Below are positions 7,711 through 18,651 of a stretch of 44,060 nt of DNA, in pieces. The stretch's first letter is position 1; each line of letters starts with the position of its first letter. The stretch covers positions 1 through 44,060 of the forward strand of contig JAURHD010000020.1 of assembly GCA_030833445.1 (NCBI GenBank). The letters run 5' to 3'. The DNA is from Cephaloticoccus sp. Its GTDB lineage: Bacteria; Verrucomicrobiota; Verrucomicrobiia; Opitutales; Opitutaceae. Both the position numbers and the translations under genes were made by a program. The notes below the pieces were generated by a model, which worked only from the letters and a program-made list of their open reading frames with translations, did not search any database and was not told the origin of the DNA.

Positions 7711-8367
7711 ATGTCCAAACTGTTTCCCAAAGCGGCTAACAAACTGCCCCTCCAAATAGTCATTTTTCTATTTGTGCTCGGTGGCATTGCGACAGCCGGA
7801 GTGAGCTATTACATGACTCCGAGTTACACTCGAGTCGGTTATGCCCCGGTTCAACCCGTGCCCTTTAGTCATGCCATCCATGCCGGTCAGCTGGGTATCG
7901 ATTGCCGTTATTGCCATGTGGGTGTGGATAAAGGACCTGCCTCGACGGTGCCAGCTGCCCAGACCTGCATGAACTGTCATAATCAGGTCAAGGTGGACAG
8001 CCCGTTACTCGCGGTTGTTCGCGAAAGCTATGAAACGGGTAATCCAGTGCCTTGGGTGAAAATCCACCAAGTGCCGGATTACGCCTATTTCAATCACTCT
8101 GCTCACGTTAACCGCGGTGTCAGTTGCGTCGAATGCCATGGTCGCGTCGACGAAATGGACACCGTGACGCATATGAAACCTCTTAGCATGGGCTTTTGCT
8201 TGGATTGCCATCGCAATCCCGAGCAGGTGGTTCGTCCGCTCGACAAGGTTACCGATCTCGGCTGGAAACACCCAGAAGGGACCGAAGGCCAATTGCGCGA
8301 CGGAGCCAAATTTGTCCACGACTGGAATATCAAGCCACCGCAAAGCTGCTCAGGCTGTCATCGATGA
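7711..8367 (+). CDS. actA: Alternative complex III subunit ActA, pentaheme cytochrome c
   Basis: A 218-aa protein with an N-terminal membrane anchor (about residues 13-34) and five CXXCH heme c sites: CRYCH, CMNCH, CVECH, CLDCH and CSGCH at the very C-terminus. Five hemes, this size and the position ahead of actB are diagnostic of ActA. ActA is the periplasmic electron wire of alternative complex III, which oxidises menaquinol/quinol and reduces periplasmic electron carriers. Additional histidines (for example FSHAIHAG and FNHSAHV) are likely distal heme ligands. GGAG lies 12 nt before the ATG. Its stop overlaps the actB start (ATGA at 8364-8367). Confidence 0.95.
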   Translation: MSKLFPKAANKLPLQIVIFLFVLGGIATAGVSYYMTPSYTRVGYAPVQPVPFSHAIHAGQLGIDCRYCHVGVDKGPASTVPAAQTCMNCHNQVKVDSPLLAVVRESYETGNPVPWVKIHQVPDYAYFNHSAHVNRGVSCVECHGRVDEMDTVTHMKPLSMGFCLDCHRNPEQVVRPLDKVTDLGWKHPEGTEGQLRDGAKFVHDWNIKPPQSCSGCHR

Positions 8368-11300
8368 AACGCAAATTTCACCATCCCGCTCCCTCTGAAA
8401 CCGAGCTGAAGCACGGCCCCAAGTATTGGCGCAGTCTTGACGAGTTGGCGTCCACGCCGGGCTTCAAGGCTCGTTTGGCGCAGGAGTTCCCGGAAGGGGC
8501 TTCCTCCATTGAAGGGGTTGATCGCCGTCAGTTCATGAAGGTCATGGCCGCATCTTTCGCGCTCGGCGGAGTGGGCTTGGCTGGTTGCCGCCGTCCAGAG
8601 GCTAATATTTTGCCCTATGGCAAGTCGGTCGAGGGAGTGATTCCCGGACTGCCGTTGTATTTCGCCACGGCCATGCCGATTCGCAAAACAGCGATTCCGT
8701 TGCTGGCAGAAACTCATCAGGGCCGGCCCACCAAGCTGGAAGGCAATCCGTCCTATACCCCCCATGGTGGCGCGAGTTCATTGCATGCCCAGGCTTCGGT
8801 GTTGGATCTGTATGATCCAGATCGGGCGACCGCCCATACCCAAGATGGGGCCAAACTCACCTCGGCCGCGGTCAACGACCTCTTGGCCAAGTTGGGCAGT
8901 GATTACAGTTCAACGGGTGGGGCAGGACTTGCCTTCCTGGCTGAAGAATCTGCTTCTCCAACGCGCGCTCGTCTGGTTGCCAAACTGCGGTCGAAGTTCC
9001 CGTCCGCTATCTGGGCCGAATATGAGCCCCTGCAGGACGAACCACCCTTGGCTGCGGCACAGGCTGCGTTTGGCAAGGATGTGAAGCCGCTTTACCGTTT
9101 CGCCAAGGCCAAGCGGATCGTTTCCATTGATGCTGATTTCCTCCACGCGGAAAGCGGCAGTCTGTATTTTGCCCGGGAATTTGCCAAGGCGCGTAAGGTC
9201 ATCAAAAGCGATGACCCGATGAACCGCCTGTATGCGGTCGAGAGCACTTTCACTCTGACCGGTTCCATGGCCGATCACCGTCTGCGTCTGGCCAGCAGCC
9301 ACATGCTGGCCTTTGCTGCCGCCTTGGCGAACAATGTAATGGGTTCATCGCCTCTGGATGTATTGTCCCAGGGGTTGGATTTCCCTCGTCAGACTGAGTG
9401 GTTGGAAGCCTGCGCCGAAGATCTGCGCAATCATAAGGGCGAATGCTTGGTGGTTGCCGGTTCGCATCAGCCACCGGCGGTTCATGCCATCGCCTATGCG
9501 CTGAATTCTTACCTCGGTAATATCGGTCTCACCGTTGATTTTGTAGCCGTCGAGTCTTCACCAGCCGCTTCCATTACTGACTTGGCCAAAGCGGTCAAAG
9601 TTGGCGCCGTCAAATCTCTCGTGGTTCTCGGTGGTAACCCCGCTTACAATGCACCGGCGGAATTGGATTGGGCTGCACTTCAAAAATCGGTTTCGAGCGT
9701 AATTCGTTACGGTTATTATGTCGACGAGACCTCGGCCGCCGCTGGCACCCACTTGGCTGCGGCTCATTATTTGGAAGCTTGGGGCGATGCCCGCACGGTT
9801 GACGGCACTATCGTGCCGGTTCAACCGATGATTTTGCCGCTGTTCGGCGGCTTGACCGAGATTGAAGTTTTGTCCCGCATCCTCGGTGAGGAAAATACCG
9901 ATCCGTATTCGCTCGTGCATGCGACCATCGGCAAATTGACCGGTGGCGACGAAACCGCGTTCCAGAAATTCCTCCACGACGGCTTGCTGGCGGACACCAC
10001 TTATCCCGTGGTCAAGGTCAGCTTCGATATGAATGGAACGGGCCCTCTGTTCAAGAGTGCTCCCGCCCCGGCTGCCCTGTCGCGCAGCAACTTGGAAGTT
10101 CGTTTTGCCACTGACCACAAGATGGACGACGGCCGGTTCATCAACAACGGCTGGCTGCAAGAATGTCCTGATCCGATCAGCAAGATCACTTGGGATAATG
10201 CCATTTTCGTCAGTCCTCGCTTGGCCAAGGAATTGGATATTTTGCCAAAGGATTCACTGATCCAAGTCGCCCGCATTGGGTTGGCGGATTCGGATCGGGG
10301 TGTCGAAATGGCACCGGTCGGTGAAGTTACCATCAATGGCCGCACCGTGCGTGGCCCGATTCACATCCAGCCGGGTCTTTCGAACTACACCATCGTGCTG
10401 CCACTTGGCTACGGTCATGCGGTGACGGGACGGGTGGGTGAGGGCTCTGGCTTCAACGCCTATTCGATCCGCACCTCAACCACCCAAGCTTTTGCCACTG
10501 GGGCAAGTCTCACCCTGACCGGTGAACGGGTTAAGTTGGCCAACACGCAAGAACACTGGTCGATGGAAGGCCGCGACTTGGTGCGCGAAGCCAATCTTGA
10601 CGAAGTGCAGGATCCGCATGGTGCGGGACTTGCCTTTGTGAATGCCATTGGTCTTGAGGCACACAGCCCGCCGATCTACGGCGAAGAAGGGGAGAAGATG
10701 ACCCTGGCTGAAAAAGCCACCCTGACGCCGCGCGGAAATTCCCTTTACGAAAGTCCGGACTACAAGGGCCTCCATCAATGGGGCATGAGTATCGATCTGA
10801 ATACCTGTATTGGTTGCAATGCCTGTATCGTCGCCTGTCAGGCGGAGAACAACATTCCGATCGTCGGCAAGGATCAGACCTTGCGTGGTCGTTCAATGCA
10901 TTGGATTCGTCTGGACCGTTATTATTCGGATGGCAAAGCCGACGGGCGCGCGATGGCAGATCTGTTCGGTGGTGAACCGAGTGGCAATCGGGACATTCCT
11001 GAAGATCCGCAAGTATCCCTTCAACCGGTGGCCTGCATGCAGTGTGAATTGGCCCCCTGTGAAACGGTTTGCCCGGTGAATGCTACCGTGCATGACGACG
11101 AAGGCCTCAATGTCATGGCCTACAACCGTTGCATCGGCACTCGTTACTGTGCGAACAACTGCCCTTACAAGGTCCGGCGCTTTAACTATTTTGACTGGAA
11201 CCAGCGCGAACTCGACAAGCTGTATCTCGGGCCACTCGGTCCGCAGGGCATGCCCGAGTTGGTCAAGATGGTAAAAAATCCCGAAGTCACGGTGCGCATG

Positions 11301-11768
11301 CGCGGCGTGATGGAAAAGTGCACGTATTGCGTGCAACGCATCGAAAACGGCAAGATCCAGCACAAGGTCAAAATGGCCAAGGCCGGACGTCCGGGCGATG
11401 TCGTGGTTCCAGATGGTGAAATCAAGAGTGCTTGCCAACAGGCTTGCCCGGTCGACGCGATTGATTTCGGCAATATTCTCGATCCCGAGAGCGCCGTCTC
11501 GAAAGCCAAGGCGCGCGAGCATGATTACGCCTTGCTGGGTTATCTGAATATCCGTCCCCGCACCACTTACCTCGGCAAGTTACGCAATCCGAATCCCCAT
11601 ATGCCGGATTATGATAAGATGCCGTTCAGCCGCATTGAAAACGCCAACAAGAATCACCCACCGGCCGCTCACGGCGAAGAACACGGGGCCGAAGAATCAA
11701 AGCACGGTCATGAAGAGACCGGTCATACTTCTGTGAAAACCAATACGCGCATTGGAGGGTTGAGCTAA
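8364..11768 (+). CDS. actB: Alternative complex III subunit ActB, iron-sulfur and molybdopterin-fold protein
   Basis: Starting at the ATG that overlaps the actA stop gives 1134 aa. A twin-arginine signal [17 protein letters not shown] lies at about residues 53-69, the usual internal place for ActB. The N-terminal two thirds resemble molybdopterin oxidoreductases, a domain known to lack the cofactor in this family. The C-terminal third, from about residue 814, is NrfC-like. I count fifteen clustered cysteines (groups [44 protein letters not shown]). That equals the requirement of three 4Fe-4S and one 3Fe-4S centre reported for alternative complex III. It passes quinol electrons toward ActA and ActE. 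The His/Glu-rich C-terminal tail is probably disordered. Confidence 0.95.
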
Positions 11769-13198
11769 TGGCCCATACCGCTGATTCAACGCATCCCACC
11801 CCGGCGATTTTAGCCGAGGTCAAACCGGCAATCCTGCCACGGGCCGAACTGGTTGAGCACAATCGTGACTTCTCGTGGATTACCGAAAAGATCTGCGGCA
11901 TCATTGAGGGCAAGACTCCGACGTGGTGGTGGTGGTGCTTCGGCGTCGCCTGTTTTGTGGCGTCATTCACCGTGATTGGTATCGCTTATCTGGTAGCAAC
12001 CGGTGTTGGCGTCTGGGGTCATCGCAATCCGGTCAACTGGGGTTGGCCGATCGTAAATTTCGTTTTCTGGATCGGTATCGGTCACGCCGGCACCTTGATC
12101 TCGGCAATTCTCTGCCTCTTGCGTCAAAAATGGCGCACATCGATCAATCGGGCGGCGGAAGCCATGACGATCTTCGCGGTGGTTTGTGCTGCGATCTTCC
12201 CGGTCTTCCACGTCGGCCGCGTCTGGTATGCGTGGTTTCTGTTCCCTATTCCCAACTACAACCAAATCTGGCAGAACTTCCGTTCGCCTTTGGAGTGGGA
12301 CGTATTCGCGGTATCAACCTACGGAACAGTCTCGGTTCTTTTCTGGTATGTCGGCATGATTCCAGATTTAGCGGTCTTGCGTGACCGTTTTTACAACGCG
12401 GGTAACAAGTTGCGTTCGTCGCTCTATGGATTCTTTGCCATGGGCTGGCGCGGTTCGAACCGCCACTGGAGCAATTACGAGATGGCTTATCTCATCCTCG
12501 CTGGTGTCGCCACCCCGCTGGTGCTCTCGGTGCACACGATCGTGTCGTTCGACTTTGCGGTCTCTCTGATTCCCGGCTGGCACACCACGATTTTCCCGCC
12601 GTATTTCGTCGCTGGCGCGATCTTCTCCGGATTCGGCATGGTGTTGACTCTCATGCTGCCACTGCGGGCGATCTACAAGATGGAGGATCTGATCACGCAG
12701 TATCACATCGACTGCATGTGTAAGATCACTTTGGCGACTGGCACGATGGTTGGATACGCCTATGCGATGGAATTCTTCATCGCTTGGTATGGCGCCAATC
12801 CCTATGAGGGTTTTGCGTTTATCAACCGTGCATTCGGTCCGTTTGCTTGGTCCTACTGGATCATGATTTCGTGCAATGTAATCACTCCCCAGTTCTTCTG
12901 GTTTAAGAAAGTTCGTCAGAACACCACCATGGTCTGGGTGCTGTCGATCTTCGTTAACGTGGGCATGTGGTTCGAACGTTTCGTGATCATCTGCACCTCG
13001 CTGACCCGTGATTTCCTGCCTTCCAGCTGGGCTTATTTCAGCCCCTCCATCGTGGATATCTTCACCTTCTTCGGCACGTTCGGAGTATTCTCGGTGCTGT
13101 TCCTGCTCTTCATCCGATTCCTGCCGGTCATGCCAATGGCCGAAATCAAGGCGGTCACCCCGGGGGCCGATCCACATGCAGGCCACGCTCACCATTAA
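11768..13198 (+). CDS. actC: Alternative complex III subunit ActC, NrfD-family quinol-binding membrane protein
   Basis: A 476-aa polytopic protein with about ten transmembrane helices. Typical segments are [15 protein letters not shown] and [10 protein letters not shown], where the conserved His and Asp/Glu positions line the quinol site in NrfD/ActC proteins. The start shares a base with the actB stop (TAATG). ActC carries the main quinol-oxidising site near the 3Fe-4S cluster of ActB and is proposed to take part in proton movement. The C-terminal tail is short and ends HAGHAHH. Neighbouring genes in canonical act order leave little doubt. Confidence 0.95.
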
Positions 13199-13210
13199 TT
13201 TATCACGCCA

Positions 13211-13744
13211 ATGTCTGCACAACCATACGGCCTGATCGCCACCTTTAACACTGCCGCTGATATCTATCATGCGGCGGAGCAGGTGCGTGATGCCGGTTAT
13301 AAGAACTGGGATTGTATTACACCTTGCCCGGTGCACGGCTTGGATGGGGCGATGGGTTTGCGTCGTTCGATCGTGCCACGGATTTCGCTGCTCGGCGGTA
13401 TCACCGGTTTCTGCACCGGCATGTCGCTGATTTTCTACACCGATGCTTATGATTATCCCCTGATCGTCGGCGGTAAGCCTTTCTTCAGCCCAATGTTTGC
13501 CTTTCCGGTATCCTACGAGCTGACGATTTTGTTTACGGCGTTTGCGACCATCATCGGAATGTTTCTACTGAACGGTTTGCCAAGGCATAATCATCCGGTG
13601 CTCGCTTATGAGCACATTGCCCGCGGCATGGACGATAAATTCTTTGTCGTGATTGAAGCCCGTGACCCACGATTCAACCTCGCCAACACCAAGGCCCTCC
13701 TCGAGCAGGCGGGTGGTGCGGACATCAAGGAGCTGGAAGCCTGA
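13211..13744 (+). CDS. actD: Alternative complex III subunit ActD (DUF3341)
   Basis: A 177-aa protein with an N-terminal soluble alpha/beta part (YGLIATFNTAADIYHAAEQV) and two transmembrane helices, about residues 57-77 and 96-118. A short C-terminal soluble region contains FFVVIEARDPRF. This matches the DUF3341 family, the ActD subunit that sits on the inner side of the complex and stabilises ActB/ActC. The segment with CITPCPVHGLDGAMGL before the first helix is typical. It begins 12 bp after actC without a visible ribosome site. Confidence 0.92.
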   Translation: MSAQPYGLIATFNTAADIYHAAEQVRDAGYKNWDCITPCPVHGLDGAMGLRRSIVPRISLLGGITGFCTGMSLIFYTDAYDYPLIVGGKPFFSPMFAFPVSYELTILFTAFATIIGMFLLNGLPRHNHPVLAYEHIARGMDDKFFVVIEARDPRFNLANTKALLEQAGGADIKELEA

Positions 13745-13746
13745 TC

Positions 13747-14400
13747 ATGCGCAACGTTTACCTAACCACCGCGTTACTCGTCGTCCTCGCCATTTCGGTG
13801 CTGGGCTTGCGCGGCACCAAATTTACGCACGCGCCCATGGATGTATTTCCTGAATGGGCGTTTCCCGGCATGAAGCGGCAGCCCAAATACAAGCCTCAGG
13901 CGGCGAGTAAATTTTTCGCCGATGGCCGCGCCGATCGTCCTCTGCCGGCTGGAGTAGTGGCAGCGAACTTTGGACCGCTGGGCCAGGATTTTTCTTCTGA
14001 TGCGCATTTCACCAGTGGCACACAAGCAGGCGGAACGTTCGCCAAAGGTTTTCCTGCCTCAGTGGAGGTTGACCTGAAATTTTTGGAGCATGGCAAGGAT
14101 CGCTACACCATTTATTGTGCACCCTGCCACGGAGCTTTGGGTGACGGTAACGGTATCACCAAGCAATATGGCATGGGCGCTACTCCGACCTATCACGATG
14201 ATCGCATTCGGAACATGCCTGAGGGTGAAATCCTGAACACCATTATCCACGGCAAGGGCAATATGCTCTCTTATGCCGACAAACTAACCCCGGACGATCG
14301 CTGGGCGGTAATCGCCTATGTCCGCGCCCTGCAACGCGCCCAAAACGGATCCACGGCCGACGTTCCAATGGCCCACAAATCGGAGCTTGGCATTAAATGA
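13747..14400 (+). CDS. actE: Alternative complex III subunit ActE, monoheme cytochrome c
   Basis: A 217-aa protein with an N-terminal hydrophobic anchor (residues 4-21). The family segment FADGRADRPLPAGVVA follows, then one CXXCH (CAPCH) starting near residue 124, with a Met (GNMLSYADKL) placed to be the sixth ligand. ActE is the membrane-tethered monoheme subunit that accepts electrons from ActA. Many ActE proteins are lipoproteins; here no lipobox cysteine is seen, so the anchor helix probably remains uncleaved. It starts 2 bp after actD and overlaps actF in ATGA. Confidence 0.93.
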   Translation: MRNVYLTTALLVVLAISVLGLRGTKFTHAPMDVFPEWAFPGMKRQPKYKPQAASKFFADGRADRPLPAGVVAANFGPLGQDFSSDAHFTSGTQAGGTFAKGFPASVEVDLKFLEHGKDRYTIYCAPCHGALGDGNGITKQYGMGATPTYHDDRIRNMPEGEILNTIIHGKGNMLSYADKLTPDDRWAVIAYVRALQRAQNGSTADVPMAHKSELGIK

Positions 14401-15623
14401 GCAACGCTGCTGACACTACTGCATCCCAAGCCAGCAAGGCCCTTTATATCGGCTTGGCCGGTATCGTGGTCACCGCCTTGGGAATCTTTGTCTCCGGTCT
14501 CCAAACCATCGCCATGTCATGGCTGGTTGGCGTGAGCTACTGGACAGCCATTGCCATAGGCATGCTGCTGTTGATATTGATCCACCATATTTTTGACGCC
14601 TCTTGGTCGGTCATCCTGCGCCGCCAGTATGAACACGGAATTACCGCCTTCAAATGGCTGGCTTTGCTCTTTGTTCCGTTGTTGGTGGCTTCTTGGGTAG
14701 CTCCTCATGACCTGATTTGGCCATGGATGAACTTGGGCCATGAAATTCATGGCGGTCACACGGTAGGTCATGATGTGCTCTATCTGAAGAAATCCAGTTT
14801 CCTAAATTTGAATATGTTCACGGGCATGACCGTTGCCTTCTTTGGGATCTGGATCTGGTTGTCGTCACGCCTGCGCAAAGCGTCCTTCACTCAGGATCTC
14901 GATGGTAACGCCGGGTGGACCACAATGAACCGCAAAACAGCCGCCTTCGGTATTCCCTTGGTGGCGCTCTCCCTGACCGGCGCGGCGATCTACTGGATCA
15001 AGAGTCTCGAATACCACTGGTTCTCCACGATGTATGGGGTTTGGTTCTTCGCGAACTGTGTCCGCGGTGCCCTTTGTATCGGGGTAATAATCACGCTGTG
15101 GCTCTACAATCGCGGAGACTACAAGGGTATCCTCAACAAGAACCATATGCACAGTATCGGTCAGCTGATGCTGGCGTTTACCGTGTTCTGGGCTTACGTG
15201 ACCTTTTCCCAATATTTCCTGATCTGGAACGCCAACGTTCCGGAAGAAACCTTCTGGTATAATCTGCGTGAATACGGGGACTGGTGGTGGGTCGGCATGG
15301 TGATCCTGTTTGGCCACTTCTTCATCCCGTTTTTTGCCCTGCTGTCCTACCGATTTAAGGTTACGCATCATATCATTCGTCGAATCGCCTACTGGATTCT
15401 GACGATCATCCTGATCGATATCTGCTACAATGTGCTGCCGGCCATCAAGGATGCGCATGGTAATCCCGAACCGTTTCTTTCCATACAGTTGCTCTGGACG
15501 ATTACATCCGTGGTCGGAGTAGGCGGTATTTGTGCCTGGGCTTACCTGAAAAGTTTTCCATCCACGAAACTCATTCCTATCCGCGATCCCCGTATTCGCG
15601 AATGCCTGACCCATCATGAGTAA
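14397..15623 (+). CDS. actF: Alternative complex III subunit ActF, NrfD-family membrane protein
   Basis: A 408-aa polytopic protein with about ten helices, a paralogue of ActC in the NrfD/PsrC superfamily. Recognisable features are IHHIFDASWSVILRRQYEH in the second helix and loop, and the amphipathic segment with HEIHGGHTVGHDVLYLKKSS. ActF pairs with ActC in the membrane core of alternative complex III. The start overlaps the actE stop (ATGA), and its own stop overlaps the next small gene by 8 bp (ATGAGTAA), so production of the six subunits and the small protein is tightly coupled. Confidence 0.95.
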   Translation: MSNAADTTASQASKALYIGLAGIVVTALGIFVSGLQTIAMSWLVGVSYWTAIAIGMLLLILIHHIFDASWSVILRRQYEHGITAFKWLALLFVPLLVASWVAPHDLIWPWMNLGHEIHGGHTVGHDVLYLKKSSFLNLNMFTGMTVAFFGIWIWLSSRLRKASFTQDLDGNAGWTTMNRKTAAFGIPLVALSLTGAAIYWIKSLEYHWFSTMYGVWFFANCVRGALCIGVIITLWLYNRGDYKGILNKNHMHSIGQLMLAFTVFWAYVTFSQYFLIWNANVPEETFWYNLREYGDWWWVGMVILFGHFFIPFFALLSYRFKVTHHIIRRIAYWILTIILIDICYNVLPAIKDAHGNPEPFLSIQLLWTITSVVGVGGICAWAYLKSFPSTKLIPIRDPRIRECLTHHE

Positions 15624-15915
15624 TTCACCCTCTGTTCGTCCTGCATCACTGGTCTCTATCCTGGCGATCCTGTGCTGCCTCGCGTTGTTTCTGCTCTTGG
15701 TTTACATCGCCTACCTGCCAAACCAGACCGGACCTTATACGGGTGACGGTATTCGCACGCCGGCTGAGCGTAAGGAAAGACTTGCCGAACTCCGCGCCAA
15801 TGAGGCCAAGCACGCCCACAGCTATGCTTGGATAGATCAACAGGGTGGGGTTGTGCAGTTGCCGATTGACCGTGCAATGGAACTGACAGTGCAGCGCTAC
15901 CATTCAAAGAATTAA
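15616..15915 (+). CDS. Small single-pass membrane protein of the respiratory cluster
   Basis: A 99-aa protein with one transmembrane helix at about residues 10-31. A short charged linker (TPAERKERLAELRANEAKHAH) leads to a conserved-looking C-terminus containing YAWIDQQGGVVQLPIDRAME. That last motif resembles short periplasmic tails I associate with proteins encoded beside complex III and cytochrome oxidase genes, but I cannot name a family. Its ATG lies inside the end of actF. Placement between complex III and the CcoN-like gene suggests an assembly factor or bridging subunit (inference). Confidence 0.78.
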   Translation: MSNSPSVRPASLVSILAILCCLALFLLLVYIAYLPNQTGPYTGDGIRTPAERKERLAELRANEAKHAHSYAWIDQQGGVVQLPIDRAMELTVQRYHSKN

Positions 15916-15935: not shown

Positions 15936-17354
15936 ATGACCACCGTCTCGACCAGCTCTGTGTCCACTGAAGTCAGCGATATTGATCGTTCGGCGCACTG
16001 TTCACTATCTTTTCTCATCGCTTCCTCACTGGCTTGGTTGGTGATTGGCGGCGTGCTTTCGCTGATCAACCTGATCCAGCTGCATACCCCGGCGTTCCTG
16101 GCCGATTGTGCTTGGTTGACCTATGGGCACACCCAAGCCCTGCAAGAGACTGCCCTGATTTACGGTTGGGCCGTCAATGGTGGCTTGGCTGTCGGCCTAT
16201 GGTTTTTGGCGCGCCTTGGTGGTGCACCCTTGCGTGGAGGTAACTATATCAGCATTGGAGCGGTATTTTGGAATCTGGGTCTGACCGCGGCATTGGTCGG
16301 TATCGCCTGCGGCGAAATGACTTCATTTTCACTGCTGCAATTACCCCGTTTTATCCAACCGTTGATGTTGGTGGCATTTGGAGCCATGGCGGCTCCGGGG
16401 GTGCTGGCATGGACCGGCCGCCGCAAGGAAGCGACCTATGCAACCCAATGGTATGTCGTGGGTGCCCTGTTTCTCTTTCCATGGTTTTTCTCGGTTGCTC
16501 AAGTAATGCTGCTTTTCGTTCCGGTGCGAGGCGTGCTGCAAACCGTCCTCGCTTCATGGTATGCGCAGAATGTTTACAGTCTGTTGCTGGCTCCATTGGC
16601 GGTGGCGGTTCTGTATTATCTGCTTCCTAAGATTAAGGGGAAAGTTATCCCGAGTTACGATTTCGCGATCTACGGATTCTGGTCGTTGCTGTTGTTTGGA
16701 ACCTGGATGGCTGGACGCACTTTGGTTGGTGGTCCGGTTCCAGCGTGGATTCCGACCATGGCGATAGTCGCCAGCTCACTGGTCCTTTTTCATCACATCA
16801 TCCTGTTCGTAAATCTACGGGAAGTTTTTAGTCCGGCTGGAAGTTTGGCGCTCAAATTTGCGGGTTTCGGGTTTGCCGCGTATCTGATCAACGGGGTGGT
16901 GGATGCTTTCTTTTCGTCCCGGGTGCTGGCCGCGGTCACTCAATTTACCTATTTCCAAACTGCGCAACACCAGCTTGTCCTGGCGGCCTTCTCCCTGAGC
17001 ATTTTCGCGGCCATCTACTACTTGGCGCCACGAATTGTTGGGGCGGCTTGGCCATCGAGTAGTTTGGCCCGGGCTCACTACATGGCCTCGATCATCGGAT
17101 TTACCGTCCTCATTTGCGCCTTGGCAATTGCGGGCTGGCGGCAGGGTGTGGCGCTGAACAATCCGGAACTCAATTTCACGGCTATTGCCGGTATCACTCG
17201 TCCTTGGCTGCTGGTTGCGACCGCTGCGCAGGGCCTACTGGTCGTGGGCAATCTGGCCCTGGGGATCCATTTCGTTCGACTGATGTTGACCAAATCCACT
17301 GCTGAATCCTTGGCCAAATTTAATCAACCGTCCGCCTTGGAGGCTTCTTCATGA
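15936..17354 (+). CDS. CcoN-like (cbb3 oxidase subunit I fold) protein lacking cofactor ligands
   Basis: The 472-aa protein has about twelve transmembrane helices and the same length and spacing as CcoN. Recognisable segments are WLTYG at 60-64, SWYAQN at 207-212, YDFAIYGFWSLLL at 241-253, and QHQ at 344-346 followed by YYLAPRIV. Against the canonical CcoN pattern as I recall it, the heme b ligands are Q70 and Q346, the heme b3 ligand is Q344, the CuB ligands are Q211, R261 and T262, and the active-site Tyr is G255. I checked these codons directly. It should therefore bind neither heme nor copper and cannot reduce oxygen. H65, H286, H287 and H345 exist but do not fall in ligand positions. It overlaps the CcoO-like gene (ATGA). 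Automated annotation will probably name it a cbb3 oxidase subunit I; that function is doubtful. Confidence 0.9.
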   Translation: MTTVSTSSVSTEVSDIDRSAHCSLSFLIASSLAWLVIGGVLSLINLIQLHTPAFLADCAWLTYGHTQALQETALIYGWAVNGGLAVGLWFLARLGGAPLRGGNYISIGAVFWNLGLTAALVGIACGEMTSFSLLQLPRFIQPLMLVAFGAMAAPGVLAWTGRRKEATYATQWYVVGALFLFPWFFSVAQVMLLFVPVRGVLQTVLASWYAQNVYSLLLAPLAVAVLYYLLPKIKGKVIPSYDFAIYGFWSLLLFGTWMAGRTLVGGPVPAWIPTMAIVASSLVLFHHIILFVNLREVFSPAGSLALKFAGFGFAAYLINGVVDAFFSSRVLAAVTQFTYFQTAQHQLVLAAFSLSIFAAIYYLAPRIVGAAWPSSSLARAHYMASIIGFTVLICALAIAGWRQGVALNNPELNFTAIAGITRPWLLVATAAQGLLVVGNLALGIHFVRLMLTKSTAESLAKFNQPSALEASS

Positions 17355-17986
17355 AAAACGGTTTTCTATTCTTTTTCGGCCTGTTTTTTGTGCTCGCCTT
17401 GTCATGGGCCGGCCTCGTGCTCGGCACCCAGGCGCAAATGGGTGACCTCAGTCCGCACTATGACGATCTGGAAGGGAAATCATTCCCTGAGCGCGCCAGT
17501 GGTCTGGCATCGCGGGGCCAATTGGTTTATCAAGACTTAGGTTGTGCTGCCTGCCATACGCAACAGGTTCGGCGTCCGGAATACGGATCAGACAAAGAGC
17601 GCAACTGGGGCAGCCGTCAGAGTGTCGCTCGTGATTATGTACAACAAGCACGACCACTTTTGGGCAGTAGTCGCATTGGTCCTGATTTGGCCAACTTTGG
17701 AATGCGGGCGAAGGAAGACGGTGTCGATGCGGCCAGTCTCCTGGTCAGCCTCTATAATGGCAGTGAAGGTATGCCTGCTTATCGTTTCCTCTTCGAAGAG
17801 CGTAAGATTATCGGCGAAAGCAGTCCAAAGGGCCTGCAGGGTGTGGCTGCACCGGGTTATGAACTTGTCCCAACTGAACGTGCCGAAACCTTGGTTGCCT
17901 ATCTGCTAAGTTTAAAACAGACCTATGAATTTTCTGAGGCTCGTCCATTTGAGCCGGTCCATGCCAATGAAGGAGCACACGAATGA
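17351..17986 (+). CDS. CcoO-like membrane-anchored monoheme cytochrome c
   Basis: A 211-aa protein with an N-terminal helix (about 4-24) and a periplasmic cytochrome domain. The heme site CAACHTQQVRRPEYG starts near residue 65, and SRIGPDLANFGMR and GMPAYRF (axial Met) follow, all hallmarks of CcoO. Unlike its CcoN-like partner upstream it keeps a complete heme c site, so it can still carry electrons. It is coupled at both ends by ATGA overlaps. In a normal cbb3 oxidase CcoO feeds electrons into CcoN; here it more likely relays between ActA/ActE, the next cytochrome and a separate oxidase. Confidence 0.9.
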   Translation: MKNGFLFFFGLFFVLALSWAGLVLGTQAQMGDLSPHYDDLEGKSFPERASGLASRGQLVYQDLGCAACHTQQVRRPEYGSDKERNWGSRQSVARDYVQQARPLLGSSRIGPDLANFGMRAKEDGVDAASLLVSLYNGSEGMPAYRFLFEERKIIGESSPKGLQGVAAPGYELVPTERAETLVAYLLSLKQTYEFSEARPFEPVHANEGAHE

Positions 17987-18651
17987 GTGCTGAAATGCCC
18001 AATGATCCGCGCCTTGAACAGGCCGCCGCAACTGACGAAAGCCTGATATCGGCCCATGAAAAGGCTGCTGCCGGTGAGCCGGACACGCATGCGCATTACC
18101 GTTTGCTTCCACTCGCACTACTGTTCGTCTTTAGCGGCCTGATCTTTTTTGGCGGCACTTATTTGAATCGTTACTCGGGTCATTTCCATTCGGAGATATT
18201 TGACGAACGCCAAATGCCCGGCGGTGGAGCCGAAGCTGCCGTGGTGCAAATAGATCCCGTGGTTTTGGGGCGTAAGCAATATGCTTTGGCCTGCATCACC
18301 TGCCACCAAGCCAACGGTCAAGGCGTGCCCAACGTCTACCCGCCACTGGTGGGTTCTGAATGGGTTAATGGTTCGGAAGAGCGCGTTATCAGCATTTTGC
18401 TGCATGGCTTGAAGGGACCGATCACGGTTGAAGGTAAGACCTATAATGCGGCAGTGATGCCGGCATTCGGTCAGGTTCCAGGCGGTGGCTACAACTGGAG
18501 CGATGAAAAGATTGCTGCCGTGTTGACCTACGTGCGCCAAGAGTGGGGTAATACTGGAGGCCCCATTGCGGTGGCCAAAGTCACCGAATTACGCAATAAA
18601 GAGGCGAACCGCAAAGAATGGACCGAAGCAGAGCTGCTGCAATTGCCCTGA
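17983..18651 (+). CDS. Membrane-anchored monoheme cytochrome c
   Basis: A 222-aa protein with a cytoplasmic N-terminal segment, one transmembrane helix at about residues 45-63 and a periplasmic class I cytochrome c domain. The domain has CITCH near residue 104, YPPLVGSEWVNG, and an axial Met in AVMPAFG. It occupies the place of CcoP in a cbb3 operon but has only one heme and a different layout, closer to cytochrome c subunits linked to caa3 oxidases. It is the last gene of the respiratory operon and is followed by a strong terminator. Probable role: handing electrons from complex III to a terminal oxidase. Confidence 0.9.
   Translation: MSAEMPNDPRLEQAAATDESLISAHEKAAAGEPDTHAHYRLLPLALLFVFSGLIFFGGTYLNRYSGHFHSEIFDERQMPGGGAEAAVVQIDPVVLGRKQYALACITCHQANGQGVPNVYPPLVGSEWVNGSEERVISILLHGLKGPITVEGKTYNAAVMPAFGQVPGGGYNWSDEKIAAVLTYVRQEWGNTGGPIAVAKVTELRNKEANRKEWTEAELLQLP

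Follow-up and report, generated by a model that had tools for sequence, protein, structure and literature searches.

A CcoN homologue without haem or copper ligands in the alternative complex III operon of Verrucomicrobiota, a putative pseudo-oxidase scaffold

The window analysed here, a stretch of 44,060 nucleotides from a Cephaloticoccus sp. genome (contig JAURHD010000020.1, assembly GCA_030833445.1), encodes a CcoN-like protein, designated ccoN*, at the end of an alternative complex III (ACIII) operon. Sequence evidence establishes this protein as a relative of ACIII-linked CcoN proteins that retain all their ligands. The same evidence establishes that it has itself lost every ligand of haem b, haem b3, and CuB together with the active-site tyrosine, and that selection keeps it in a fixed operon. 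Judged from sequence, ccoN* has almost certainly lost oxidase catalysis. We consider it probable, as an inference rather than a demonstrated fact, that ccoN* is a pseudo-oxidase scaffold that keeps two monohaem cytochromes attached to ACIII, where they would relay electrons. Such a scaffold or relay role is likely, although protein data are lacking.

Subunit I of haem-copper oxidases is usually seen as the catalytic core of aerobic respiration, and its presence is taken to indicate O2 reduction. In the present case, numerous genomes of one bacterial family, along with further families of the same class, retain a subunit I devoid of metal ligands, and the enzyme function has been lost at least three separate times. 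The phenomenon is real, widespread, and unusual.

Fold, active-site positions, and operon of ccoN*

The gene occupies an uninterrupted open reading frame of 472 amino acids (positions 15936–17354, forward strand). Its product matches the Pfam COX1 family at 5.6e-31. Because this match clears the cut-off, automatic annotation is likely to credit genomes carrying the dead gene with an extra oxidase. The match to the ccoN model TIGR00780 (2.6e-19) reaches 69.5 bits and stays below the equivalog cut-off of 583, as does an intact family member, L022, with 235 bits. A sequence search among solved structures returned five relatives of CcoN length, either cbb3-type or plainly named cytochrome-c oxidase chains, of which 9g6b (4.6e-7) and 3mk7 (2e-6) were nearest. 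An AlphaFold2 model computed from 20 family members reached a pLDDT of 88.7 and a pTM of 0.90, and it displays the CcoN subunit I fold with 12 long helices. The top PDB match of this model is the CcoN chain 3mk7_D (Z 48.1, rmsd 2.0, 444 residues aligned), and the five best matches are exclusively cbb3 entries. Weaker matches were NO reductase, at Z 41.1 and 39.4, and the A-type oxidases, at about 34. The model and its Z score corroborate the view of the first-pass annotation that fold and 472-residue length are those of CcoN.

The active-site positions were read from an alignment with intact family members and with 10 true CcoN proteins of related genomes, which uniformly read HHYHHHH at the seven ligand and active-site columns of the active enzyme. 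At these columns ccoN* carries Q70, Q211, G255, R261, T262, Q344, and Q346. None of the six histidine ligands of haem b, haem b3, and CuB is present, and Gly255 (codon 16698–16700) occupies the position of the active-site tyrosine. Q70 (16143–16145) replaces the histidine of low-spin haem b, Q211 (16566–16568) the first CuB histidine, and R261-T262 (16716–16721) the CuB His-His pair, while Q344-H345-Q346 (16965–16973) covers the haem b3 and haem b sites and the residue between them; all these codons lie on the forward strand. The placement of Q344 and Q346 is ungapped and anchored on the invariant F337-T338, with a one-residue deletion only after both. All seven assignments agree with those made earlier by hand. 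The label of a cofactor-free relic, attached to the protein at that stage, fits the loss of every known ligand of haem b, haem b3, and copper, with the reservation that no protein was examined.

Remaining histidines were considered as ligands and rejected. H65 lies outside the ligand columns, and site 65 is arginine in 27 of 30 family members. H345 is likewise outside and belongs to a very variable column of its clade (98th entropy percentile). H286 and H287 fall outside the ligand columns as well, in the next long helix, and proline occupies position 286 (codon 16791–16793, forward strand) in 45/45 intact proteins. Ligand geometry at any of these four residues would have refuted the original proposal, and none of them stands in a ligand column.

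The surrounding genes follow the order actABCDEF-orf99-ccoN-ccoO-ccoP, all on the forward strand, and the ACIII-ccoN operon occurs through the window's class of Verrucomicrobiota. The window contains the six act genes in order: actA (7711–8367), whose product has five CxxCH haem c motifs; actB (8364–11768), with ActB relatives in the PDB (best E 9.6e-252); actC (11768–13198), of the NrfD family; actD (13211–13744; PF11821, 2.4e-63); actE (13747–14400), with one CxxCH; and actF (14397–15623), which matches PDB entry 6f0k_F at 4.5e-51. Downstream of ccoN* lie a ccoO-like gene (17351–17986; FixO, CAACH) and a ccoP-like gene (17983–18651; CITCH, methionine in VMPAFG), and both products are monohaem cytochromes c. 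Since ccoN-ccoO, ccoO-ccoP, and actE-actF each overlap by four bases, these genes are probably translated together.

In most loci the gap between actF and ccoN holds orf99 (15616–15915 in the window, forward strand), a 99-codon frame for a small protein without any Pfam family above cut-off. It may be a local ActG- or CcoQ-like part, but this is a guess. Seven other loci (L194, L195, L196, L203, L205, L050, and L251) have an extra CcoP-like gene at this place, with one CxxCH in that of L251; it probably supplies an additional haem c within the same operon.

The window's genome (2.9 Mb, 97.75% complete) has one further COX1 gene, located on another contig. It is of the A-type (caa3-type), and its subunit II contains a CuA motif and a CxxCH. 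Neither cytochrome bd nor a bc1-type cytochrome b was found in this genome, and ACIII together with the caa3-type oxidase would form its aerobic chain. CcoS was not found either, which is a weak test given that the model spans only 44 positions and matched 2 of 14 control genomes.

Distribution, losses, and selection

Matches to ccoN* at E ≤0.001 occur in 239 of 252 genomes of the same taxonomic family, where weak matches represent other CcoN types. At E ≤1e-60, 122 of 387 genomes drawn from the phylum gave a match, ordinary CcoN included. From 237 loci, 184 distinct proteins were taken, including three intact ones without adjacent act genes (L209, L225, and L226). All seven residues are retained in 45 proteins, six in 1, two in 8, one in 104, and none in 26. 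No protein retains three to five, which suggests that ligands vanish quickly once catalysis has been lost. Proteins with two or fewer of the seven residues, termed ligand-poor, account for 138 of the 184. Sampling was uneven, as the 80 named loci are the best 80 of 386 confirmed matches, and the share of dead forms represents no natural frequency. ActF, ccoO, and ccoP all adjoin ccoN in 129/138 ligand-poor and 37/45 intact loci and also in the six-residue locus, whereas the complete set of six act genes was observed in 38 loci. The neighbour counts derive from stretches of greatly differing length, and many misses coincide with the end of a contig or stretch. States nearly identical to that of the window, QQSRHQQ and QQARHQQ, were assigned by coordinate match to cultured Cephaloticoccus primus and C. 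capnophilus (L008 and L010). The dead form is therefore present in cultured strains.

Several other members of the wider family were encountered. L236, the six-residue protein (HHYSHHH), has serine at the first histidine of the CuB pair and otherwise resembles intact members; it represents either a loss at its initial stage or an error in the sequence. A further CcoN type with open frames of 550–634 aa occurs in a few genomes of the same family (the intact L036 and matches in G015 and G136), and distinct frames of about 780 aa are probably CcoN-CcoO fusions. Genome G021 has a second copy of the ccoN family (C1:3327703-3329130) inside an open frame of 999 aa. Two loci from genomes outside the window's class, L266 (8665-10642) and L267 (9275-11258), each contain an intact CcoN-CcoO pair, upstream of which a protein with seven CxxCH motifs is encoded. 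No complete act operon was found in either, and they possibly encode a different CcoN-containing complex.

The number of losses was inferred from an IQ-TREE tree built without the seven ligand columns from 70 representatives and 5 CcoN rows. Parsimony on this tree requires at least three changes between the intact and ligand-poor states, and a single ligand-poor clade, with its 60 rows forced together, was rejected (delta lnL 62.6, p-AU 0.0057). One ligand-poor group comprises 8 rows from other members of the class that retain H70 (L190 to L207). Another is nested in an intact group of the same order (L187, L029, L045, L048, and L206), and the third, with 47 rows, includes the window. Because intact CcoN proteins lie outside these groups, loss is the natural direction of change. 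Several deep forks have bootstrap values of only 81–84%, L200 sits on a long branch, and the CcoN row L036 is separate from the other four. A quick tree had given four or five losses, a count reduced here to the parsimony minimum of three.

Selection was assessed by a simple counting method in our own script, with pairs that share proteins. Close ligand-poor ccoN pairs gave a median dN/dS of 0.107 (range 0.041–0.153; 38 pairs, 39 proteins), compared with 0.074 for intact pairs (10 pairs). No internal stops were found among the matches listed. At an ActF distance of 0.3–0.4, the median CcoN distance was 0.53 for not-intact pairs (2129 pairs) versus 0.26 for intact ones (25 pairs), with corresponding values of 0.49 and 0.37 for CcoO and of 0.52 and 0.47 for CcoP. 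The larger CcoN divergence of not-intact pairs recurs in all four ActF bins. At equal ActF divergence, ligand-poor ccoN shows about double the divergence of intact ccoN, and relative to ActF itself the former diverges more and the latter less. This comparison covered 127 of the 184 loci (16 intact, 111 not), again with shared proteins among pairs. The lowest ActF bin held only 2 intact pairs, and CcoP was reversed there (0.51 intact, 0.44 not). Because the CcoN gap exceeds those of CcoO and CcoP in ActF-matched pairs, constraint is relaxed above all in CcoN, yet it is far from gone. With its catalytic residues lost and its gene under purifying selection, ccoN* qualifies as a pseudoenzyme.

Constraint at the former active site was examined in the 92-protein clade of the window, which was taken from a tree built without the ligand columns and positions 71 and 286. 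FastTree support at this node is low (0.133), whereas its 26 representatives receive 100/100 in IQ-TREE. R261 and H286 are present in 92/92 members, Q211 and G255 in 88 each, E71 in 86, and Q346 in 80–88. R261, H286, Q211, G255, and E71 differ from the residues of intact proteins. The second CuB position is still histidine in 82/92, and Thr262 is peculiar to the window. Sites 70 (mainly Q, A, or R) and 344 are unconstrained, and the new residues at the other old-site positions are constrained.

These data qualify the first-pass annotation, which had seen an orderly exchange of histidine for glutamine. Order is evident in the fixation or near-fixation of Q211, G255, and R261, and Q346 is largely conserved too; the glutamines at 70 and 344 do not share this constraint. 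The exchange is moreover typical of the window's clade only, as other ligand-poor lineages filled the sites with A, F, S, W, and others. The accompanying judgement, that an intact frame coupled to its neighbours does not reflect random decay, is upheld by conserved gene order and a dN/dS near 0.1. Nor is the gene a recent one-off mutant, the ligand-poor pattern being clade-wide. Conserved gene order, dN/dS, the clade-wide pattern, and a confident fold together make a non-catalytic CcoN homologue, selected and coupled to its neighbours, well supported.

Haem c partners and competing readings

The haem c motifs of the neighbouring cytochromes are nearly invariant regardless of the state of CcoN. 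CxxCH is present in CcoO at 139/139 loci short of the full seven residues, among them L236, and at 44/44 intact loci. For CcoP the counts are 132/134 and 39/39, with the two misses being frames of 95 and 107 aa without a haem domain. A methionine downstream of the CcoP motif, probably the axial ligand, is found in 129/130 and 38/38, respectively. Every ligand-poor genome checked (31/31) has another COX1-family gene. The ACIII-linked CcoN is the sole COX1 match in 2 of 28 intact genomes, and the intact form is for this reason very likely a working oxidase. This tally omits 13 of 72 genomes for which no ccoN sequence was retrieved.

Among 20 long stretches, seven carry a co-directional CoxA gene after ccoP (L250-L254, L257, and L259); six are ligand-poor, and L254 is intact. 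The stretches were partly chosen for a known COX1 nearby, and the proportion is no frequency. Loci with an A-type oxidase gene directly after ccoP come from four families other than the window's, and in the window's own clade no cox gene was found near ccoN in 48 loci for which over 5 kb of downstream sequence was available. In L256, ccoP is followed by a CoxB-like gene, without CoxA in the stretch. In the alignment, eight genome CoxA proteins (the seven above and L255) retain their histidines, and nine CoxB proteins retain the CuA-type motif and lack CxxCH. In CoxA-adjacent loci, the two Cco haems would be the obvious donors to CuA. A profile comparison between intact family members and their own CoxA gave a probability of 2.7% and was not counted as evidence.

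In the proposed mechanism, ccoN* would be unable to reduce O2 and would bind neither haem b nor copper, and its 12-helix body would anchor CcoO and CcoP to the membrane domain of ACIII. Electrons would pass from quinol through ActB/ActA/ActE to the haem c groups of CcoO/CcoP and from there to soluble cytochrome c or to a separate A-type oxidase. The terminal oxidase would be the caa3 enzyme on another contig in the window's genome. The four other families would use the A-type oxidase whose gene comes right after ccoP and whose CuA subunit lacks a haem c. On this view, at least three lineages would have converted an ACIII-cbb3 oxidase into an electron bus. Binding of ccoN* to CcoO/CcoP or to ACIII is inferred from gene order and homology to cbb3, without an assembly structure or biochemistry, and the evidence for association with ACIII is gene linkage only. 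The intact CcoN of L254 speaks against the relay reading, since CoxA adjacency evidently does not require ligand loss; the 48 loci of the window's clade without a cox gene and the lone CoxB-like gene of L256 also count against it. The near-invariance of R261, H286, Q211, G255, and E71, for its part, exceeds the needs of a mere frame; residues conserved to this degree at or near the old site would leave room for a second, unidentified role in the window's clade.

One candidate for such a function is a replacement site, in which R261, Q211, H286, E71, and often H262 would form a polar pocket where the active site used to be, with a quinone, a metal, or the head group of a lipid as its ligand. 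The clade counts and the departure of R261, H286, Q211, G255, and E71 from intact proteins are compatible with it. We nonetheless consider it rather unlikely. Unrelated residues in other ligand-poor lineages make a common new pocket function improbable beyond the clade. Histidine reaches at least 95% conservation only at H286 and H381, of which H381 is common to intact proteins, and H262 is missing in the window. The same scarcity bears on the idea that haem b and copper are still bound through other residues and that O2 or NO is reduced. The intact haem-copper oxidase fold is all that recommends this idea, and no histidine pair substitutes for H70/H346 or H211/H261/H262, so that we give it very little credence. 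Another possibility is a channel for protons or ions that contains no cofactor and is driven by the neighbouring ACIII, in the manner proposed for ActC/ActF. It would draw on several conserved polar residues in the window's clade and on the cofactor-free membrane subunits of ACIII that the consulted part of PMC5928083 describes as proposed proton conductors. It remains improbable, as the sites vary between ligand-poor lineages.

A purely structural alternative is that ccoN* stabilises ACIII or a neighbouring membrane protein outside electron flow. The greater divergence of ligand-poor ccoN, and the smaller divergence of intact ccoN, relative to ActF would suit an assembly factor, and a proposal of this kind for a ligand-less COX1-like protein of Acetobacter offers a precedent, as far as the portion of PMC10715153 available to us goes. 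We hold it to be unlikely, given that the haem motifs of CcoO and CcoP are near-invariant in ligand-poor loci, although a pure stability role would not need them. Decay of a pseudogene, a recent mutation, or an assembly error could be suspected from the loss of all ligands and from the roughly doubled protein divergence at equal ActF divergence. The dN/dS range over 38 pairs, the lack of internal stops among the matches listed, and the related states in two cultured Cephaloticoccus contradict this suspicion, which the selection test and the clade-wide pattern rule out.

The scaffold that carries two monohaem cytochromes on ACIII remains the reading we favour. Its broader form, namely that Verrucomicrobiota repeatedly turned an ACIII-bound cbb3 oxidase into a dedicated, oxidase-dead electron bus in which a metal-free CcoN* serves as an adaptor that joins ACIII with the CcoO/CcoP haems and, in several families, with a separate A-type oxidase in a single supercomplex, is a tentative generalisation that we would neither assert nor dismiss. 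If true, it would describe a respiratory complex whose core catalytic subunit turned structural. Intact and dead forms within the same operon provide a natural series for studying the non-catalytic role of an oxidase frame and also the way in which electrons leave ACIII.

Relation to known systems

CcoP of cbb3 oxidases is normally dihaem, and the CcoP beside ccoN* differs in having one haem c motif, not two. In other respects the system resembles the C-family oxidases, for example that of Pseudomonas stutzeri (3mk7), in its fold over 444 residues and in the CcoO and CcoP relatives that follow. It departs from their CcoN in the replacement of seven residues, in a score far under the NCBI ccoN cut-off, and in its location in an ACIII operon. 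No report of a ligand-less ACIII-linked CcoN was found in the open-access literature; subscription papers on ACIII clusters were not covered, and prior notice cannot be excluded.

The nearest parallel to the protein itself is the COX1-like protein of Acetobacter, which, according to work cited in PMC10715153, is retained without any metal-cofactor-binding residues. That protein is also a ligand-less COX1 relative kept by its hosts; it is, however, clustered with ctaB in alphaproteobacteria, and the sections of the article available to us mention no link to ACIII or CcoO/CcoP.

Parallels to the operon come from other bacteria. In Methylacidiphilum, ACIII genes are co-located with cbb3-type oxidase genes in a genome without bc1 (PMC6688271), both points of agreement with the system described here. 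The accessible text describes that cbb3 enzyme as complex IV and does not discuss its ligand state. For Verruconatronum, the portion of PMC13274419 at hand lists a caa3 oxidase under the gene numbers that directly follow act. Rhodothermus marinus and Flavobacterium johnsoniae form ACIII-caa3/aa3 supercomplexes (PMC5928083). Their partner is an active oxidase, and the consulted part of that source mentions no CcoN-like protein. As in the Verrucomicrobiota loci, oxidase genes lie downstream of act. Haem c groups provide a relay to the oxidase, as is inferred for ccoN*-type operons, and in these supercomplexes the oxidase is reported, within the same extract, to be physically joined to ACIII.
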